Below, in pieces: positions 53,511-62,295 of a stretch of 64,000 bases of DNA (its first letter is position 1; each line of letters starts with the position of its first letter). The position numbers were made by a program, and so were the translations under genes. Source of the DNA: Malus domestica. Taxonomy: Eukaryota > Streptophyta > Magnoliopsida > Rosales > Rosaceae. The notes beneath the pieces were generated by a model. That model saw only the letters and a program-made list of their open reading frames with translations. It had not been told where the DNA came from and did no database searches. The DNA lies in assembly GCF_042453785.1 (NCBI RefSeq), contig NC_091672.1, positions 1,679,001 through 1,743,000 of the forward strand, written 5' to 3'.

Positions 53511-54732
53511 TTATTCCGGCTTTCGGCACGTAATCACTGCATACTTGATTAGATCCTTCTTGAATCCTTGGATCATCAGTGGCATTACCAACGCTCCTCT
53601 GATTGTTTTTATTCCTGATCAATTCAAATCAAGAAACGCAATGATTCCGGGTTTTCGACCAAAAACAATCAACGAACACAATTATATAGATTGAAAAAAT
53701 GAAAGCTGAGACTGTATCTGCAACTAGAGACATAAACACGTAGAAAATTAGAAATCAAGCAATGTAGTACGAAATGTGCATCTTTTCCCACTTAAGTTTG
53801 GTATTGAAAGGTTTAGTTGGGAAGAAACGCTAAGTTCATACCGGTGCGCAACAGCGATGTAATACCCTTCCATGTCAATGCCGAGCGGATAACTGCAGGC
53901 CAAAATGGGGCAACATACGGGGACCAATCTTCTGCCTTGATGTCCTGCCATGGAAGGTTTCAGATGTTATTGTTGCAGGTTGATGTAGAGACACCAAGTT
54001 GTTAACTCAAAAAGACTGGACTTAGTCCAGCCAATATTTTAGCGGGTCCACATGCCCTTTTTCCCCCCTTGCACCTGCTTGTTTATATTGATCTGCGAAA
54101 ATCATTCCTTTATTTGAGCAAGTAATTTACCTTGAGCGAATGGGACTCGAGTAATTTGAGATAATCAGCAGCGGAACACCAGGCTGGCAGATAGAAAGAA
54201 TTACATATCCTGTCCAGGAGGCGTTTCTCGTCTGGCTTCAAGGTTGTTTCAGAAGCACCAAGATCCCTATGGCACCATGTGACTATTATTATTGTTGCTC
54301 CTGGTGCAGCAACTCGAACCAACTCATTCACAAACTGCACAGTTATAAGAAGAGCGAAAAGGAATATTAAGGCAAGTATTACAAAGAGTTTTAACAGTCT
54401 TTCTACGTTGCAGTTGTACTTGCGACGAAATACGACATATCAAACAGTCGTATTTACAACACGTTAACAATTGTAAATCCACAGCATCAACAATATTAAA
54501 GACATCGATATCGTATTTGACAACATATCAACATGTCCGCATTCAAAAAGTGCAGTTAACCGCAATATAGAATTTTTATACAAATCATGCCCTATTATCA
54601 ATCAGTTTAGTCGAGAAAGAGGTATACCTTGGCTTTGTCAGGCATGTGCTCTCCACTCTCCATGGACCATACCAGATCAAATTCTCCATCAGGAAATGGT
54701 TGGTTCAGAGCATCTGCAACTTGAAATGAGGC
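53511..54732 (-). pseudogene. VTE4: Gamma-tocopherol methyltransferase, last four exons only
   Basis: VTE4 methylates gamma-tocopherol to alpha-tocopherol (vitamin E) with S-adenosylmethionine in plastids. Exons in transcript order: 54732-54628, 54334-54131, 53944-53842, 53614-53511, giving 171 residues in one open frame with all GT-AG sites intact. Recognisable parts are FQVADALNQPFPDGEFDLVW, SGEHMPDK, IIIVTWCHRDLG, FYLPAWCS, DIKAEDWSPYVAPFWPAVIR and ITCRKPE. These match exons 3-6 of the six-exon Arabidopsis gene. Exons 1-2 (transit peptide, first SAM-binding motif) were not found between 54733 and the window end. Either the gene is 5'-truncated or intron 2 exceeds 9 kb and its first exons lie beyond the window. 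A retroposon tail ends 30 bp from the exon 3 acceptor. It is typed as pseudogene because it is incomplete here. Confidence 0.8.
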
Positions 54733-54761: not shown

Positions 54762-55500
54762 TTTTTTTTTTTTGGGGCCGAAGGAGAACTATATACCAAA
54801 CAAACACAACTACAACAAAGGCCCAACACAAAACAAAGATATAACCAAAAACAGGCCTAAAACAAAACCAAAACAGAAAAAAGGCCCAGCAAGGCCCAGA
54901 AACCAACAGCTTCCGCCAGAAGCTTCCACATCCATCGTCCCCCTCGGAAACAGGTCATTCGGCCGGCCGATGCCCAGCAGCCATCTAGTAGCGCCTCCAC
55001 AGATGTCACCTCCAACCCACCAGAGCACAGCCACATAGTTTTTGTAGGAATAATCGGCAACCAAGTGAGCGGAGCCGATTAACAGAAGGAAGTTCGTGAA
55101 AGCCCATGAACAACACTGTTGGAAACAGCCAGACGAAGTGGAGAAAGTGGTGGTGGTGGAACCACCCGAGCCGGTGAAGAGAGCTCTACACACAATCTCC
55201 CAAATAAACTTGGCTGGCGAGCAGATCCAGGGTGAACAGAGAAGAGGGTTACCTGCAGGAGTAAAGAACCGGGGAAGGCCAGAGAGAAAATTGGGGAGCG
55301 ATAGCAGTAGAGGCAGGGAGAGGAGAAGGAGAAGAGAAAAGAAAAAGCACGGCAACCAACCCCGGCCGAAGCCAGGGCCGGTGCCACCGGAAAAGTCCAA
55401 AATCAAAAGACTCACAAACAGTGAGAAAACACTCTCAGGTCAGAGAGAAAGAACTCCCACGGAGGAGAGAAAGAAAGTTCTAGCCCATTATCGAATAGTC
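54762..55500 (-). mobile_element. Poly(A)-ended retroposon in VTE4 intron 2
   Basis: On the minus strand a GC-richer, pyrimidine-rich sequence ends in GGCCCC plus twelve A residues (T-run 54762-54773), the tail of a non-LTR retroposon. Long frames on both strands (155 and 201 codons) show biased composition and no reverse transcriptase motif. The 5' end is uncertain (between about 55480 and 55565), and no target duplication was found. Confidence 0.45.
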
Positions 55501-55707
55501 ATTGACAACAAATGTTTTTTGGACCATAAGGTTTTGGAGACCGGAACTCTGATTATTGAATAGGTTTTACTTTGGAGTCTACTTTTGAAAGAGCTAAAAG
55601 TGTTTTTTTTTTTACAACCAAAAGTATTTCTGACGTTACAAAAGTGCTTCCACCTGCTTTTTCATAAAAGACTACAAAGTGCTTCTCATAAAGAAATCTT
55701 CTAACAA

Positions 55708-55999
55708 GGACCTGGATTGTCTGCCCTCTTAGTTACCATCCCCTTCCATACCCTCCTACTTTTCTAGCCATTGATTTCATCTAATGCTCCATATTTTGCC
55801 ACCTCACCAACACCTCAAAAACATCTTTAAAGCCTCCCGCCTCTTCCACTTTTCCTAATCTTCACTCTCCCGCCTCTTCCACTTTTCTGCTGCCTTTCCC
55901 GTAGTGCCTTTCCGATTTCTGCATTTCCCGTCACCTCCTTCCGATTCACCTGATTTCTCCAATCTTCCCAGGTTAGTTTATGTTAATTTTCTTTGCTTG
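55708..55999 (+). repeat. Left terminal inverted repeat of the MULE
   Basis: 292 bp, ending CTTTGCTTG. It includes two tandem copies of CCCGCCTCTTCCACTTTTC. The likely 5' untranslated exon of the transposase ends within it at a CCCAG|GTTAGT donor near 55972. Confidence 0.9.
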
Positions 56000-56213
56000 T
56001 TTTTGCTATTGGATTAGTATTTTCTTTTTTATAACATGTTGGGTAATTGAGAACAAGAGAGATTCGTGGGATGTTTAATGTTGAAATGTTGATTTTTGAA
56101 AATCTGGAGAGGGATTTGTTCTAGATTGCCCATAACCTCTGTAAAGGAACAACTTTGAAATGTTGATTTTTTTATGTACCATACCTTTTTCTATACTGCA
56201 GATCCGATTGAAA

Positions 56214-58815
56214 ATGATTGATTCTGAAGAAGCAAATAATATCAACAATGATGACTCGAACGAATTCGATTGTACACCGAGGTGTGGTATGGAGTTTGAT
56301 TCGCAAGAAGCAGCCTATAATTTATACAATGCCTACGGACGAAAAGTGGGATTTAGTATTAGAAAAGAACGTCACTACAAGAATAAGAAAACTAATGAAG
56401 TCACTTCAAGAATTTTTGCTTGTAGTAAGGAGGGTTTTCGGCTCCAAGATAAGCGGGATTACAAGATAAAGAAGCCAAGGGCAGAGACACGGACAGGTTG
56501 TCATGCTAAAATGGTTATTAAGTTGAATAGATCTAATGGAAGGTTTTTTGTGCATGAATTTGAGGAACAACACAATCATGCTCTTCAGAAACCAGAGTGT
56601 GCACATATGCTACCATCTCAGCGAAAAATATCAGACTCTCAGGCTGCTGAGTTAGACTTGGCAGAAGAATCTGGTATCTCACTTCGGGAATCTTATGAGT
56701 TGATGGCTAAGCATGTTGGAGGAAGGGAATCTCTTGGTTATACAAGGGTTGATCAGAAGAACTATCTTTTGTCTAGAAGGCAAAGAAAAATGGTGTATGG
56801 TGAAGCAGGAAGCTTGTTGAGATATTTTCAAGGTAAGACAGTTGAAAATCCTTCATTTTTTTATGCCGTACAATTGGATAATGAAGAGCAAATAACCAAT
56901 ATATTCTGGGCAGATGCTAAAATGATAAGTGACTATGGTCATTTTGGAGATGTTGTTTCATTTGACACTACCTATAAAACTAATCGAGCAGGTCGTCCAT
57001 TTGCTGTGTTTTCTGGCTTGAATCATCATCGAGAAATTGTAGTTTTTGGGGCAGCATTGATGTACGATGAAACTGCTCCCTCGTTTATTTGGTTATTTGA
57101 AACTTTTTTGGTAGCAATGTCCAACAAGGCTCCCAAAACCATTTTTACAGACCAAGATGCTGCTATGATGAATGCCATTCCACATGTGATGCCTGATACA
57201 TATCATAGGCTTTGCTTGTGGCATATGATGCAAAATGCACTAAAGAATGTTAATTGTGTATTCAAGGGTAACAGTGGAGTTAGAGAAGTCCTAAAAAAGT
57301 TCATTGATGAATATGAGGATGAGGATGAGTTTTTAGTGGCTTGGGATGAAATGCTTGTGAAACATAATGTGCAGGGGAAAGCATTAGAGTGGTTGAAAGG
57401 AATAAAGAAGTTGAGAAAAAAATGGGCTAAGGCATATGTAAAGATGGCATGGTCTGCAGGAATGACAACTACGGGAATTAGTGAGAGCTTCAATGGTAGG
57501 TTAAAGGAGTATTTACAGTCTGACTATAATGTGGTACAATTTTTCATGCATTTTGAGAGAGTACTTGATGATCAGAGGTATAAGGAGTACCAAGCCGAAT
57601 ATAACTTGTGTTATAAGAATGCACAAGTGAAAGTTCCAGCTATGATGGTCAAACAAGCAGGTGATACTTACACGAAAGCAATATTTGAGGAATTTCAAGA
57701 ACAATATGGGGAATCTCTTGATTTAAGAATAAAAAGTACCGTTGATGATGGTGAAGTTGTTGTGTACACAGTTTTTCCACCTTACGGTGCTTTTATGGAA
57801 CGACATGTGAGGAGGGAGAGAGATTCAAACATAATCTGGTGCAGTTGCAGATTGTTTGAGATAAAAGGTATTTTGTGTAGTCATGCCATAAAAATCCTTA
57901 GAGAGGTAATGGACACCTTGGAGATCCCTAGTCAATATATTTTGAAAAGGTGGACTAAAAAAGCTAGGGCTGAGAGCATACAAGACATGCATGGGAAGGA
58001 AATCCAAGTTGATCCTAGATTGCAACAGAGCTCTCGATTTAGGTCCTTGTGCCACGCATTTACTCAGATCTCGTCCAGGGCTGCAGAAAGTGATGAAACA
58101 TATGAAATAGCTCTTAGCTGTGCACATAAGTTGGGTAAATTGACTGAAGACAAGCTCAGTTTACAAATTAATGGTAAAACAGAAGATGAGGGTGAGGATT
58201 CTGCCCCCATTATGGCTCTAAACCATTCTAATGATGTTCCCAACTTGAATAATGCCACTGTTGTCCAAGCAAAAGGATTAAAGAAGAGAGAGACTTGTCG
58301 GGGAAGAAGACGACTCAAGAGTTGTTTGGAAAAAGCTATAGCCAAAAGGAAGCGATCATCTAACTCCCATTTATCAAAGGTAAAGTTTTAATTTTCTAAA
58401 AATTATAATAGCAGTAAACTAAGTCATATGGTTTACTTATCTATATTGTGAGTTGTGACATCTTAAAGGAAACTTGTGTTCCAAATGAGACCGTTGCAGC
58501 GGGATGTTATATTGCTTCTCCTCCACCCTTTTTTTGTGCTCCCGTGATGGCTGAACCAAGGGGACCTTTTCCAGTGGTGAGTACTTTGAATTCGGTGAGT
58601 GGTAATTAACCTCCTTATATTCTTTTTTATATTATGTTTATTAGTTATTTATGCAATTTTCATAGTCACAGGGACATGACATGCTTAAATACATGCCATG
58701 GATGACATATGAAGAACCTCAGTATAGTACATTTCAAGAGCTACTCCAAACAAGTCCCACTGGTTATTCCGTTGCACATCAAGATTTAAATGTAAGCGGT
58801 GACCACTGGAGATGA
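56214..58815 (+). CDS. MULE transposase of the FAR1/FHY3 type
   Basis: The Mutator-family DDE transposase from which the FHY3/FAR1 transcription factors derive. The preferred start is MIDSEEANN, just after an acceptor CTGCAG near 56201; an earlier ATG at 56160 lies in the presumed leader intron. Domains: a FAR1 WRKY-GCM1 zinc finger at about residues 25-125 (FDSQEAAYNLYNAYGRKVGF, then HNHAL). The MULE catalytic domain has FDTTYKTN, IFTDQD, the LCLWHMMQN C/H motif and ISESFNG. A SWIM finger reads CSCRLFEIKGILCSHAI. The main exon is open to TAA at 58391 (725 residues). Two further exons are proposed: 56214-58379, 58469-58576, 58666-58815, in phase with GT-AG sites, giving 807 residues ending SVAHQDLNVSGDHWR. 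It could instead be a domesticated FRS gene, but the long TIRs argue for an element. Confidence 0.87.
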
Positions 58816-58849
58816 AGAGAGGAAGCCAACTTACTGTTATTGCAGAAGC

Positions 58850-59112
58850 AAATACTGGCATGAAAACTCATTTTTTGTGTGTAATTTTGAATGCTCCAGA
58901 TTCTGTGCTTATAATGGATGTACTGGCATGAAAACTCATTTTTTTGTGTGTAATTTTGAATATGCAGAAAAGTTCTACTTGTAATGGAAGCATGTAAGTA
59001 CATGAAAACTCATTTTCCAACCATTACTTTTGTCTTAGCATCAAAACATGATATAAAACACTCATTTTCCAACCATTACTTTTGTCTTAGCATCAAAACA
59101 TGATATAAAACA
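58850..59112 (+). repeat. Two short tandem duplications inside the MULE
   Basis: TACTGGCATGAAAACTCATT starts two units near 58853 and 58920. CTCATTTTCCAACCATTACT starts two units near 59006 and 59060, each running through ATGATATAAAACA. Both lie in the 3' part of the element, after the transposase. Confidence 0.8.
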
Positions 59113-59371
59113 GAGCAATGTAAAATACTTATCAGAAACAAAGGCATCTTAAAAGCAGATAGGAGGAGGGGGCGGGAAAGGCAGCAGAAAAAGGGAGAAA
59201 AATTAGGCTTTAAAGATGTTTTGGAAGAGTCCTCATAATCTCTGTGTTTCCGTTGGAAGAGTCCTCATAATCTCTGTATATCGTCCGCACACACGCACCC
59301 ACTTTTCCAGGAATTCTTCAAAGCCATTAGGTTACTCACCGCACCCGATCCACCCAATTAGGCGAATCGGC

Positions 59372-59663
59372 CAAGCAAAGAAAATTAACATAAACTGACC
59401 TGGGAAGATTAGAGAAATCAGGTGAATCGGAAGGAGGTGACGGGAAATGCAGCAATCGGAAAGGCACTACGGGAAAGGCAGCAGAAAAGTGGAAGAGGCG
59501 GGAGAGTGAAGATTAGGAAAAGTGGAAGAGGCGGGAGGCTTTAAAGATGTTTTTGAGGTGTTGGTGAGGTGGCAAAATATGGAGCATTAGATGAAATCAA
59601 TGGCTAGAAAAGTAGGAGGGTATGGAAGGGGATGGTAACTAAGAGGGCAGACAATCCAGGTCC
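59372..59663 (-). repeat. Right terminal inverted repeat of the MULE
   Basis: 292 bp, complement of the left repeat with three differences by eye. The element boundary is at CCAGGTCC (59656-59663). Confidence 0.9.
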
Positions 59664-59710
59664 GTAGTATGACACCCGCAACGAAACAGTCGAAACGTAT
59701 TATTTGGTGG

Positions 59711-59942
59711 GGAATTGGATCCTCGCCGGATCTAATTCATGGGGATCCTAGGGATCAACCCATGTGGACCGTTGATTAAAAATCGTGCGGTCATAATTTT
59801 TTTCTTTTTTATATTTTTCACGTAAAACGAGACTGTTTTACTTTTAAAACATTTAATTGTGACCGCACGATTTTTTATCAACGGTTCACGTGGGTTGATC
59901 CCTAGGATCCCCAGCAACTAGATCCGGCGAGGATCCAATTCC
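59711..59942. mobile_element. Palindromic 232-bp MITE with 9-bp target duplication
   Basis: Ends GGAATTGGATCCTCGCCGG and its perfect complement; arms of roughly 85 bp pair almost fully. A perfect 9-bp duplication ATTTGGTGG flanks it (59702-59710 and 59943-59951). Mutator-type, non-coding. Confidence 0.85.
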
Positions 59943-59951
59943 ATTTGGTGG

Positions 59952-60831
59952 GGTTCGATTCGGTTCAAATTGTTTGATTTAATATACGTAAGGTTTTTGA
60001 AGTTGTTGGGATCAACGACAACCAATTACCCACGATAGCTCCATGTTGTTTGTGAGAGCATCTTTAGATATTTTATAGTAGTTTAAGAGAGTGTGTGATG
60101 TATATATATAATAATCAGACACTTGAATTTAATATGTATTAAACTATTGTTACAGAGTAGTGCTACTATCTACACATTCTTTTTTACTTTTCATACATTT
60201 CTCTCAATTTTCGACCTTTAGATCGAATGATAGGAAGAAGATTAAATAACAGAACACGAGGTGAGTGAGAAGTAAAAATTAATGTTTGGATAACACTACT
60301 TTTGTCACAATGGTGTGAGTTTGATATGGATGAGTTTTATGCATTAAATATAGAACCCATCCATTTTTTATTTTTCTCTAGTATATGATTGGCTACCTAT
60401 TTTCTCTCTTGTTATTTATTATATAGGTATAAAAATAAAATAAAAAATAAAAAATCACTCTCACAGCACTCAAAATTTTTGGCCTCCTATATGAGTTTGA
60501 TTTCTATAATTGGTATCACATTCAGTTTTCAAAAATTTTGGCCTCTTGTGTGAGTTTGATTTCTATAATTCGTATCACATTCAGTTTTCAGTCTATTGTA
60601 GAAGGCTTTAATGGAGATGTCAAATATGAATTGTCAAAAATTTAATTTAAGAAGAATGTGGGCCTTGAAGTTGATGTCAAATTTTATTTATTTATTTAAG
60701 AGATATGATAAATTATTGTTTAGTATACATTGGGCCACAGTGATACAGTTTTAAAGGAGAAAAAGTTAGAATAGTTTAAAAGTTGTATCTTGTTGGTGAT
60801 TATGGCACCTCACACGTTAAAGAGAAATTTT
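59952..60831. other. Intergenic AT-rich DNA
   Basis: A small MITE near 60160-60300 (CTACACATTCTTTTTTACTT against AAGTAAAAATTAATGTTTGG) belongs to the 6520-6650 family. GCCTC.T.TGTGAGTTTGATTTCTATAATT occurs twice near 60480-60590. No gene recognised. Confidence 0.5.
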
Positions 60832-61492
60832 ATTTAAACCTATTAATCTTCTTTCCACATTTAATTTAGAAATTTTGTCTCACAAACTTACCATTTTACC
60901 CTCTAATACAAAATTTATAAACTTGAAAAAATTATACAAACACATAAACCCATCCAACCACCTACCCTAGCAACAATCGGACTTGATTATGGTCATCATC
61001 AAGCAACCAATCAACAACCTTGCTAGGCTGGTTAAGACCAAGCCTTTCTTGAAGATCATACAATTGGATTGCAGTGGGTACCGATAGCCTCACCCTCCGA
61101 TCTCGAAGCCCTCTTATGGTGCAAACCTTGCCATGCCTGTCCTTTCCTCCAAAAGCTCGAGACGCATGCACAATCCTTGGATCCTTCAACCTTGGCCATG
61201 GAGTTGATGAACGAGATAAATTAGGGTTTGATGAGATTTTATTAGCTTCTTTGGCGACACATTCTCTTGATGTCGTCGAAGACCACAACCGCCCTCCACT
61301 ATATTTTTGTTGTTCTTCTCCACCCTCCGGCAATCCATTTTCCAATTTCCGGCAGCCAATTGTGGTTGGATTTTTTGCCAGTTGATAATATATTTCTACA
61401 CCCATATTTTCTTTAGGGCATAATTGGAATATAAAATTTAACAAAAATTTAATGGGTGTAGAAATAAGTTTATTGGGTCCATATAAAATCTC
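60832..61492. mobile_element. Candidate Pack-MULE carrying a TCP gene fragment
   Basis: The left end reads GAGAAATTTTATTTAAACC and the right end, on the other strand, GAGATTTTATATGGACCCAA. Both resemble each other over about 60 bp and the termini of the foldback MULE at 13534-17780. The segment encloses TCP-coding DNA on the minus strand. No matching 9-bp target duplication was found, so the call is tentative. Confidence 0.5.
60962..61444 (-). pseudogene. Truncated CIN-class TCP transcription factor fragment
   Basis: An open 160-codon frame includes a clear class II TCP DNA-binding domain at residues 88-148: [40 protein letters not shown] and SKVVDWLL. It resembles the TCP5/13/17 group. The domain breaks off in the second helix at WLLD (near 61000); the family continues with about 10 more helix residues and a long C-terminal region, both absent. 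Upstream, residues 1-25 are read from transposon-end-like DNA, so the natural start is missing. Up to the break the domain is well preserved, so truncation is recent. It could at most encode a binding fragment without the activation region. Confidence 0.75.
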
Positions 61493-62295
61493 ATTAGATT
61501 AAATAATGAAATTGACTCCATTTTACATTTTTATTTGTTGTAAAAAAGACTCTTAAAAATAGTCAAATGACTCAATTGTCATGTAAATTATGGCATCTCC
61601 TTGAAGAAAACTTTGATGTCATTTAGTCATACTTGGCGTACCCTCAACAGTCTTTTCCTTACCTAATTGCACAAAACATCTAAAAAAATGTCAAAGAGAA
61701 TTTCCTTGGACATAATTAAAGGAGTCATTGAAAGGTGACTGAAACACTGGAAATGAGGCAAGTGACTCTTTACCACAGTGATGGAGAGGAATATTGCTCT
61801 TGCACAACGGTGTGAGTACAAACCTTGTCGGCTCCCTAAAGAGTCGGAAAAAAATGGAAACGGGGACTACCCGAGCTAATGATAAGGCAACAACACTTTC
61901 CGGCCTAGTCCCATAAATTGATTATAACGATATCGTGGAAATGCACGAACCCATGGAGTTTCCTATTCCTCAACCAATTCGGTTGTGTTAGACCTGAGAT
62001 TGACCTAACATTTAGTTATATGCTAGCTAGAGATGCTCTAACATAATCAAACCAATGACATTGTTTGTTTCTTACGTGTAATGAGTTATTCCTCTTTTGA
62101 TGACAGCGTGGTACCATTTCATCACATCCTTAAATAACCTCATGCTTAGCCAACCCATAAGTCTTTATGGAGTGTATGATGATCGTAAAAATTATCACAT
62201 AACTATTTGATTTTTAATTTTAATTTTTTACAAATATAAGAAAAATACGTTAAAGAAATGATGAATGAAGTGTTGCAGTAAAGATGTGAATGTAC
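61493..62295. other. Intergenic DNA with a SINE-like patch
   Basis: About 61775-61880 (ACCACAGTGATGG, then GTGAGTACAAACC) resembles the tRNA-derived head found in the foldback spacer at 15450-15590. The rest shows nothing recognisable. Confidence 0.4.

Follow-up and report, generated by a model that had tools for sequence, protein, structure and literature searches.

A very well preserved FAR1-type Mutator-like element at the truncated end of a putative VTE4 gene in Malus domestica

Background

Two described groups of plant Mutator-like elements (MULEs) are closest to the element studied here. In citrus, FAR1/SWIM MULEs are represented by CitMule: as described in PMC4334395, three of four copies have perfect 9-bp target site duplications (TSDs), CitMule_3 and CitMule_ARR are flanked by dissimilar 9-mers, and CitMule_ARR borders a deletion between its two target sites, for which insertion of one element into two targets has been proposed. 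The second is the FAR1-bearing Jittery group, which is characterised in the table of PMC6446971 by an N-terminal FAR1 domain, a C-terminal SWIM (or CCHC) domain, one open reading frame and terminal inverted repeats (TIRs) of 39-292 bp. The TSD of this group is listed there as 8 bp or is not indicated; for Jittery itself it is given as 9 bp (PMC9569675).

Here we describe a MULE in a window of 64,000 nucleotides (C12:1679001-1743000; positions without a contig name refer to this window) within the 651-Mb genome of 19 contigs of Malus domestica. The local collinearity of C12 with C14 and of C9 with C17 is in keeping with an apple-like genome. The element agrees with the tabulated Jittery group in domain order, in its single open reading frame and in TIR length (PMC6446971), and the TSD of its family is 9 bp. 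With maize Jittery and TED, as described in PMC9569675, it shares a mudrA-type transposase, 9-bp TSDs (here in the family), a low copy number, a 5' UTR that begins in the TIR (predicted here) and the lack of mudrB: no second long open reading frame was found within the element outside the transposase. The TIRs of Jittery and TED are about 200 bp long, those of the apple element 292 bp; both maize elements are described in PMC9569675 as autonomous, with excision phenotypes, and the window MULE is known from its sequence. Like the CitMule proteins described in PMC4334395, the apple transposase has its FAR1, MULE and SWIM domains in exon 1, the largest, and it is of similar length (811 amino acids here, 795-805 in CitMule); the element, in contrast, measures 3.96 kb and not about 6.9 kb as in citrus. 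It is most likely a Jittery-type MULE of the FAR1/SWIM (Hop/Jittery) kind, an assignment made from published descriptions. Judged by title, none of the papers listed as mentioning mutator-like elements together with Malus is about this family, and none of those listed for apple VTE4 is about this locus.

Results

Structure of the element and its transposase

The MULE occupies positions 55708-59663 (3956 bp) and has complete TIRs and a FAR1-type transposase. An inverted-repeat comparison defines a left (5') TIR at 55708..55999 on the plus strand, starting with GGACCTGGATTG, and a right (3') TIR at 59372..59663 on the minus strand, each of 292 bp. The two arms are 99% complementary, with three mismatches (TIR positions 211, 253 and 267) and no indels, and complementarity ends at the outer borders of the element; the window copy thus has the long TIRs typical for a MULE. 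The initial annotation of this DNA, made from the letters alone, had placed the element at exactly these coordinates and had described its TIRs correctly as 292 bp long, about 99% identical and equal in length. The promoter probably lies in the left TIR and the 5' UTR probably begins there, since a likely donor site of a 5'-UTR intron is located within this TIR, after position 55971 (a prediction from GT/AG borders only). A 52-bp tandem duplication is present in the 3' non-coding part (59008..59111, plus strand).

Coding exon 1 of the transposase (56214..58379, plus strand, 722 codons) encodes the FAR1 DNA-binding, MULE transposase and SWIM domains. Two further exons on the same strand are predicted from GT/AG borders, exon 2 at 58469..58594, which keeps the frame, and exon 3 at 58672..58815, which includes the stop codon; with this predicted splicing the three exons encode 811 amino acids, uninterrupted from start to stop. 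All three domains exceed the curated Pfam cut-offs (FAR1 with E 2.1e-25, MULE with 4.1e-29 and SWIM with 1.2e-06), and the MULE transposase domain PF10551 scores 101 bits against a cut-off of 27.6. This agrees with the earlier description as a FAR1-type transposase that is open through its catalytic and SWIM domains. A comparison of exon 1 with solved structures returned no match at E up to 1. With an open coding sequence (splicing predicted) and complete TIRs, the window MULE has the sequence features of an autonomous element and is most likely competent in its coding sequence; its transposase would bind the TIRs of the element, cut it out and reinsert it.

Related copies and derivatives

A genome search with the TIR, as the initial annotation had proposed for finding further copies and non-autonomous derivatives, returned at least 50 matches (40 of 111 candidates scored); matches are spread over C1-C17. 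Copies of both kinds were found. A near-identical copy lies at C9:35232950-35236853. Over 3902 internal bases it shows a single substitution relative to the window copy; beyond that, the two are distinguished by two terminal bases and one 52-bp indel. The indel corresponds to the tandem duplication of the window copy: the C9 copy, like the C2 copy described below, has one unit less. The sole coding difference is synonymous and the encoded protein is therefore identical. The two flanks of the C9 copy are adjacent and collinear in C17, which represents the empty site on the homeolog. The right flank starts with TCCACGTAT; the left flank ends with TCCA and is followed by AT where the TIR should have its first two bases. 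We interpret this as a 9-bp TSD of which one side is damaged, seven bases having been replaced by two.

A further copy, at C2:36725056-36729018, has indels and 65 mismatches in 3830 aligned bases relative to the window copy, and its reading frame is broken by the loss of 37 bases. Between the C12 transposase and the frameshifted C2 transposase there are 20 non-synonymous and six synonymous differences over 709 codons, which is near neutral. The three nearest other relatives examined (68-69% DNA identity) contain stops or frameshifts. Non-autonomous derivatives are represented by several internally deleted relatives and by a 221-bp MITE.

Two of the derivatives have unusual arrangements. One relative of the same family (L011, C12:4004331-4007467) is over its whole 3137 bp a single palindrome with 91.7% self-complementarity: two copies of the first ~1170 bp of the element stand head to head in the centre, the right TIR region is found at both outer ends and the TSD matches at 8 of 9 positions. 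It shares extra internal TIRs with the MULEs with multiple TIRs described in PMC3310237, and, unlike the tandem-TIR elements described there, forms one full-length palindrome. The second case is a pair of derivatives ~6.4 kb apart on C17 (L015, C17:28710199-28711373, and L014, C17:28716629-28717772), which have the TSD CTAATATAC in common and flanks that are alike as far as shown; the pair is probably a segmental duplication and not the result of two insertions.

Target site duplications in the family

The MITE, for example the 221-bp copy at C7:12267318-12267538 (L021), shares 20 of its first 21 end bases with the MULE. A genome search identified at least 41 near-full-length places (40 of 3175 candidates scored) and one partial place on C16. 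Two adjacent copies on C2 (1764752 and 1764976) that were fetched as one piece were excluded, and 39 copies were scored for TSDs: 33 of them have a perfect 9-bp TSD at strict borders, the number rises to 36 if border shifts of at most two bases are allowed (in one of the added three the TSD spans 8 bases), and three have none.

TSDs were also examined at chosen borders for 16 places other than the window copy, five of them MITEs, taken from the at least 50 TIR matches; the borders of degenerate places (C5, C15a, C17c, C1 and C13) were chosen by eye, and L012, L026, L027 and L028 were excluded. The TSD is complete (9/9) at seven places, including all five MITEs, and matches at 8/9 at three (C2, C12:4.0 Mb and C15:54.19 Mb). 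At the remaining six (C9, C5, one on C17, C1, C13 and C15:10.09 Mb) the match is 0-4/9; several of these are degenerate with uncertain borders, and at C15:10.09 Mb the match reappears when the border is moved by one base. Outside the MITE it is not unusual for the TSD to be missing, since these six of the 16 places, the C9 copy included, have no matching TSD. The family as a whole has TSDs in the range of 8-11 bp that is characteristic of MULEs, the window copy does not.

Age of the window copy

The initial annotation had concluded from the similarity of the TIRs that the copy moved recently. All three TIR differences are also present in the C9 copy, and the left TIR of the C2 copy has the right-TIR letters at the same three positions. 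Judged by these comparisons, the differences are inherited and predate the last transposition, because the C9 copy has all three, and they therefore provide no date for this insertion: the identity of the two TIRs within a single MULE copy is an unsafe measure of its age. What stands of the earlier claim is recent activity of the family, as seen from the C9 copy with its one substitution in 3902 bases. The basis for a recent date is this C9-C12 comparison, by which either the C9 or the C12 copy arose lately; should C12 have been the source of the C9 copy, the insertion on C12 could predate the split of the two.

The truncated host gene and the left junction

The C14 homeolog is a minus-strand methyltransferase gene whose six open blocks, here called exons 1-6, lie between 1425635 and 1422895. 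Its protein contains the Pfam domain Methyltransf_11 (E 8.2e-21), and none of the NCBIfam models compared with the gene came near its cut-off. The gene is putatively VTE4 (gamma-tocopherol methyltransferase), the name given to it in the initial annotation. The corresponding remnant in the window consists of putative VTE4 exons 3-6 (53514..54732, minus strand), which are open and have 94-97% protein identity to C14, and of putative VTE4 intron sequence at 55487..55707 (minus strand), which matches C14 and ends at the TIR. Between the two, a 722-bp insertion (54765-55486) is present in the intron of the remnant; it is 92% identical to C5:26542580-26543318 and has many weaker copies. Exons 1-2 and the upstream sequence were found on C14 and not on C12: the exon 1 protein has a single match in the genome, on C14, and of C14:1425001-1426200, which spans upstream sequence, exon 1 and almost the whole of exon 2, only the last ~160 bases have matches elsewhere (70-90%).

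Exons 3-6 have diverged little in protein sequence between C12 and C14 (171 codons, dS 0.24, dN 0.02, ratio 0.085). If unconstrained, the C12 branch alone, taken as half of dS, would be expected to have ~47 non-synonymous changes; the count for the two branches combined is eight. On this estimate, the C12 copy would have been under selection for most of the time since the duplication and would have lost its 5' part late, as the low dN/dS of exons 3-6 suggests.

Collinearity with C14 continues up to the TIR, consistent with the earlier observation that the MULE sits where the 5' exons of VTE4 are expected. Positions 55487-55613 match C14:1424482-1424605, the next 52 bases (55614-55665) are unmatched and the last 42 (55666-55707) match C14:1424870-1424909, ending at the last base before the TIR. 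This junction match has a score of 36, which was reached by two of 2000 shuffles, and the best other place, on either strand of 221 overlapping segments of 40 kb, scores 25. The left flanking 9-mer TTCTAACAA (55699..55707, plus strand) is, judged by this alignment, the old target, because the same 9-mer is found at the same place in C14. The right flanking 9-mer GTAGTATGA (59664..59672, plus strand) is not a duplicate of it: the two are alike at 3 of 9 positions, and the window copy has no 9-bp TSD, a point that the initial annotation does not make. We read this as loss of the right TSD, because the left 9-mer is the pre-insertion sequence by comparison with C14.

Two candidate explanations of the right 9-mer were considered. 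A target-site profile built from the 33 perfect MITE TSDs, in which known TSDs average the 68th percentile, was uninformative on whether GTAGTATGA is a target in its own right: it ranks at the 36th percentile, and the real left target is also low, at the 24th. A reciprocal exchange of flanks between the C12 and C9 copies gave at most 5/9 matches over all pairings, orientations and shifts tried.

Sequence to the right of the element

To the right of the MULE, collinearity with C14 is regained after 11.3 kb, at C12:1749925, which corresponds to about C14:1427420 and has the same orientation. In C12, the MULE and 11.3 kb of other sequence thus stand in the place of ~2.5 kb of C14. By genome comparison, many repeats are present in the first 4 kb searched to the right of the MULE. 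Within 59943-60818, positions ~60302-60530 and ~60615-60818 match other places at 73-76% among the matches listed, and the remainder has no match among those listed; repeats follow from ~60819. The more distant part (C12:1743001-1749925) was compared with C14 alone and gave repeat matches. One of its segments, C12:1744570-1744858, matches C14:1426558-1426963 inside the missing interval, with 71-76% identity and in both orientations; we read it as a genome-wide repeat and not as a remnant, because a genome-wide repeat covers C14 there.

Two further features lie in this region. A hairpin-like element at 59711-59942, 47 bp to the right of the MULE, has 88-bp arms of 92% identity separated by 56 bp. 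A ~700-bp repeat at 60819-61511, found at several places with 91-96% identity, overlaps a reading frame with a TCP transcription factor domain (E 4.1e-22) and is possibly a transposon carrying a gene fragment.

Discussion

The loss of the 5' part of the putative VTE4 gene ends exactly at a TIR of the MULE, and we consider it probable, with some reserve, that the deletion is tied to the element, by insertion into two targets, by recombination between copies or by failed repair after excision. The MULE would have inserted into intron 2 of VTE4 at TTCTAACAA, and a deletion starting exactly at the right TIR end would have taken away the right TSD together with the promoter and exons 1 and 2. Three routes to this deletion can be envisaged: the two ends of the element could have joined two different targets in one transposition, with release of the intervening piece; the element could have recombined with a second copy further to the right; or repair could have failed after an excision. 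The first two are favoured because the last base of the right TIR is intact; the target-site profile does not discriminate among the three. That it was a single transposition that joined the ends to two targets and deleted the first two VTE4 exons is a tentative proposal, and an uncertain one. It resembles CitMule_ARR as described in PMC4334395 in the dissimilar flanking 9-mers and the adjoining deletion; the missing stretch is, however, ~2.5 kb (in C14 coordinates) here and 2 Mb in citrus, and, in contrast to CitMule_ARR, the parental and the derived state cannot be compared side by side, which leaves the event to be reconstructed indirectly. The initial annotation had suggested that the MULE may be part of the disruption of VTE4: its location in the disrupted putative gene is borne out, and from this position a part in causing the disruption is probable.

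A deletion tied to the MULE has to be weighed against an ordinary insertion that was followed by an unrelated deletion or repeat insertion, which cost the element its right TSD and VTE4 its 5' half. The abundance of repeats in the first 4 kb on the right fits such a history, and the C9 copy, which likewise has one damaged end, shows that losses at such ends happen. Against this, the right TIR is complete down to its outermost base and the VTE4 flank behind it is wholly gone, so that a random deletion would have had to stop exactly there; we regard this course of events as rather unlikely, though worth keeping in mind. Could the unmatched flanks instead result from a false join in the assembly at the near-identical C12 and C9 copies? 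These copies hardly differ over 3.9 kb, and both lack a full TSD, but swapping their flanks does not restore one, both C9 flanks are collinear with one place in C17, the collinearity of C12 with C14 returns 11.3 kb further on without a change of orientation, and the two copies differ by the 52-bp duplication; an assembly artefact is very improbable.

Hardly credible is that the transposase is a domesticated FAR1-related (FRS) host gene that lies by chance between inverted repeats, the case that the initial annotation had named as its own refutation. FRS proteins have the same three domains, as described in PMC8599713, and the transposase bears signs of long-term constraint, with a dN/dS of about 0.18-0.20 against three relatives, at a dS of 1.6-1.7 that is near saturation and in counts that skip codons containing stops. 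Against such a host gene stand the 292-bp TIRs, the near-identical C9 copy, whose site is unrelated and is empty on the homeolog, the 9-bp TSDs of the derivatives, and the stops or frameshifts in three relatives at 68-69% DNA identity.

Conclusions

The element is an ordinary, very well preserved plant MULE of an already known kind. Its two nearly identical, open copies on C12 and C9 are candidates for a live FAR1-MULE in this genome, which also carries a MITE family with related ends and mostly perfect 9-bp TSDs. The locus is a well delimited case of a transposon end that coincides with the loss of the front part of one member of a duplicate gene pair. Should insertion and deletion be linked, insertion into dissimilar targets would gain support as a route by which genes are lost to MULEs following genome duplication; and if the reading as a single event is true, it would be a natural case of a deletion of the CitMule_ARR type, which ended the redundancy of a duplicated vitamin E gene.
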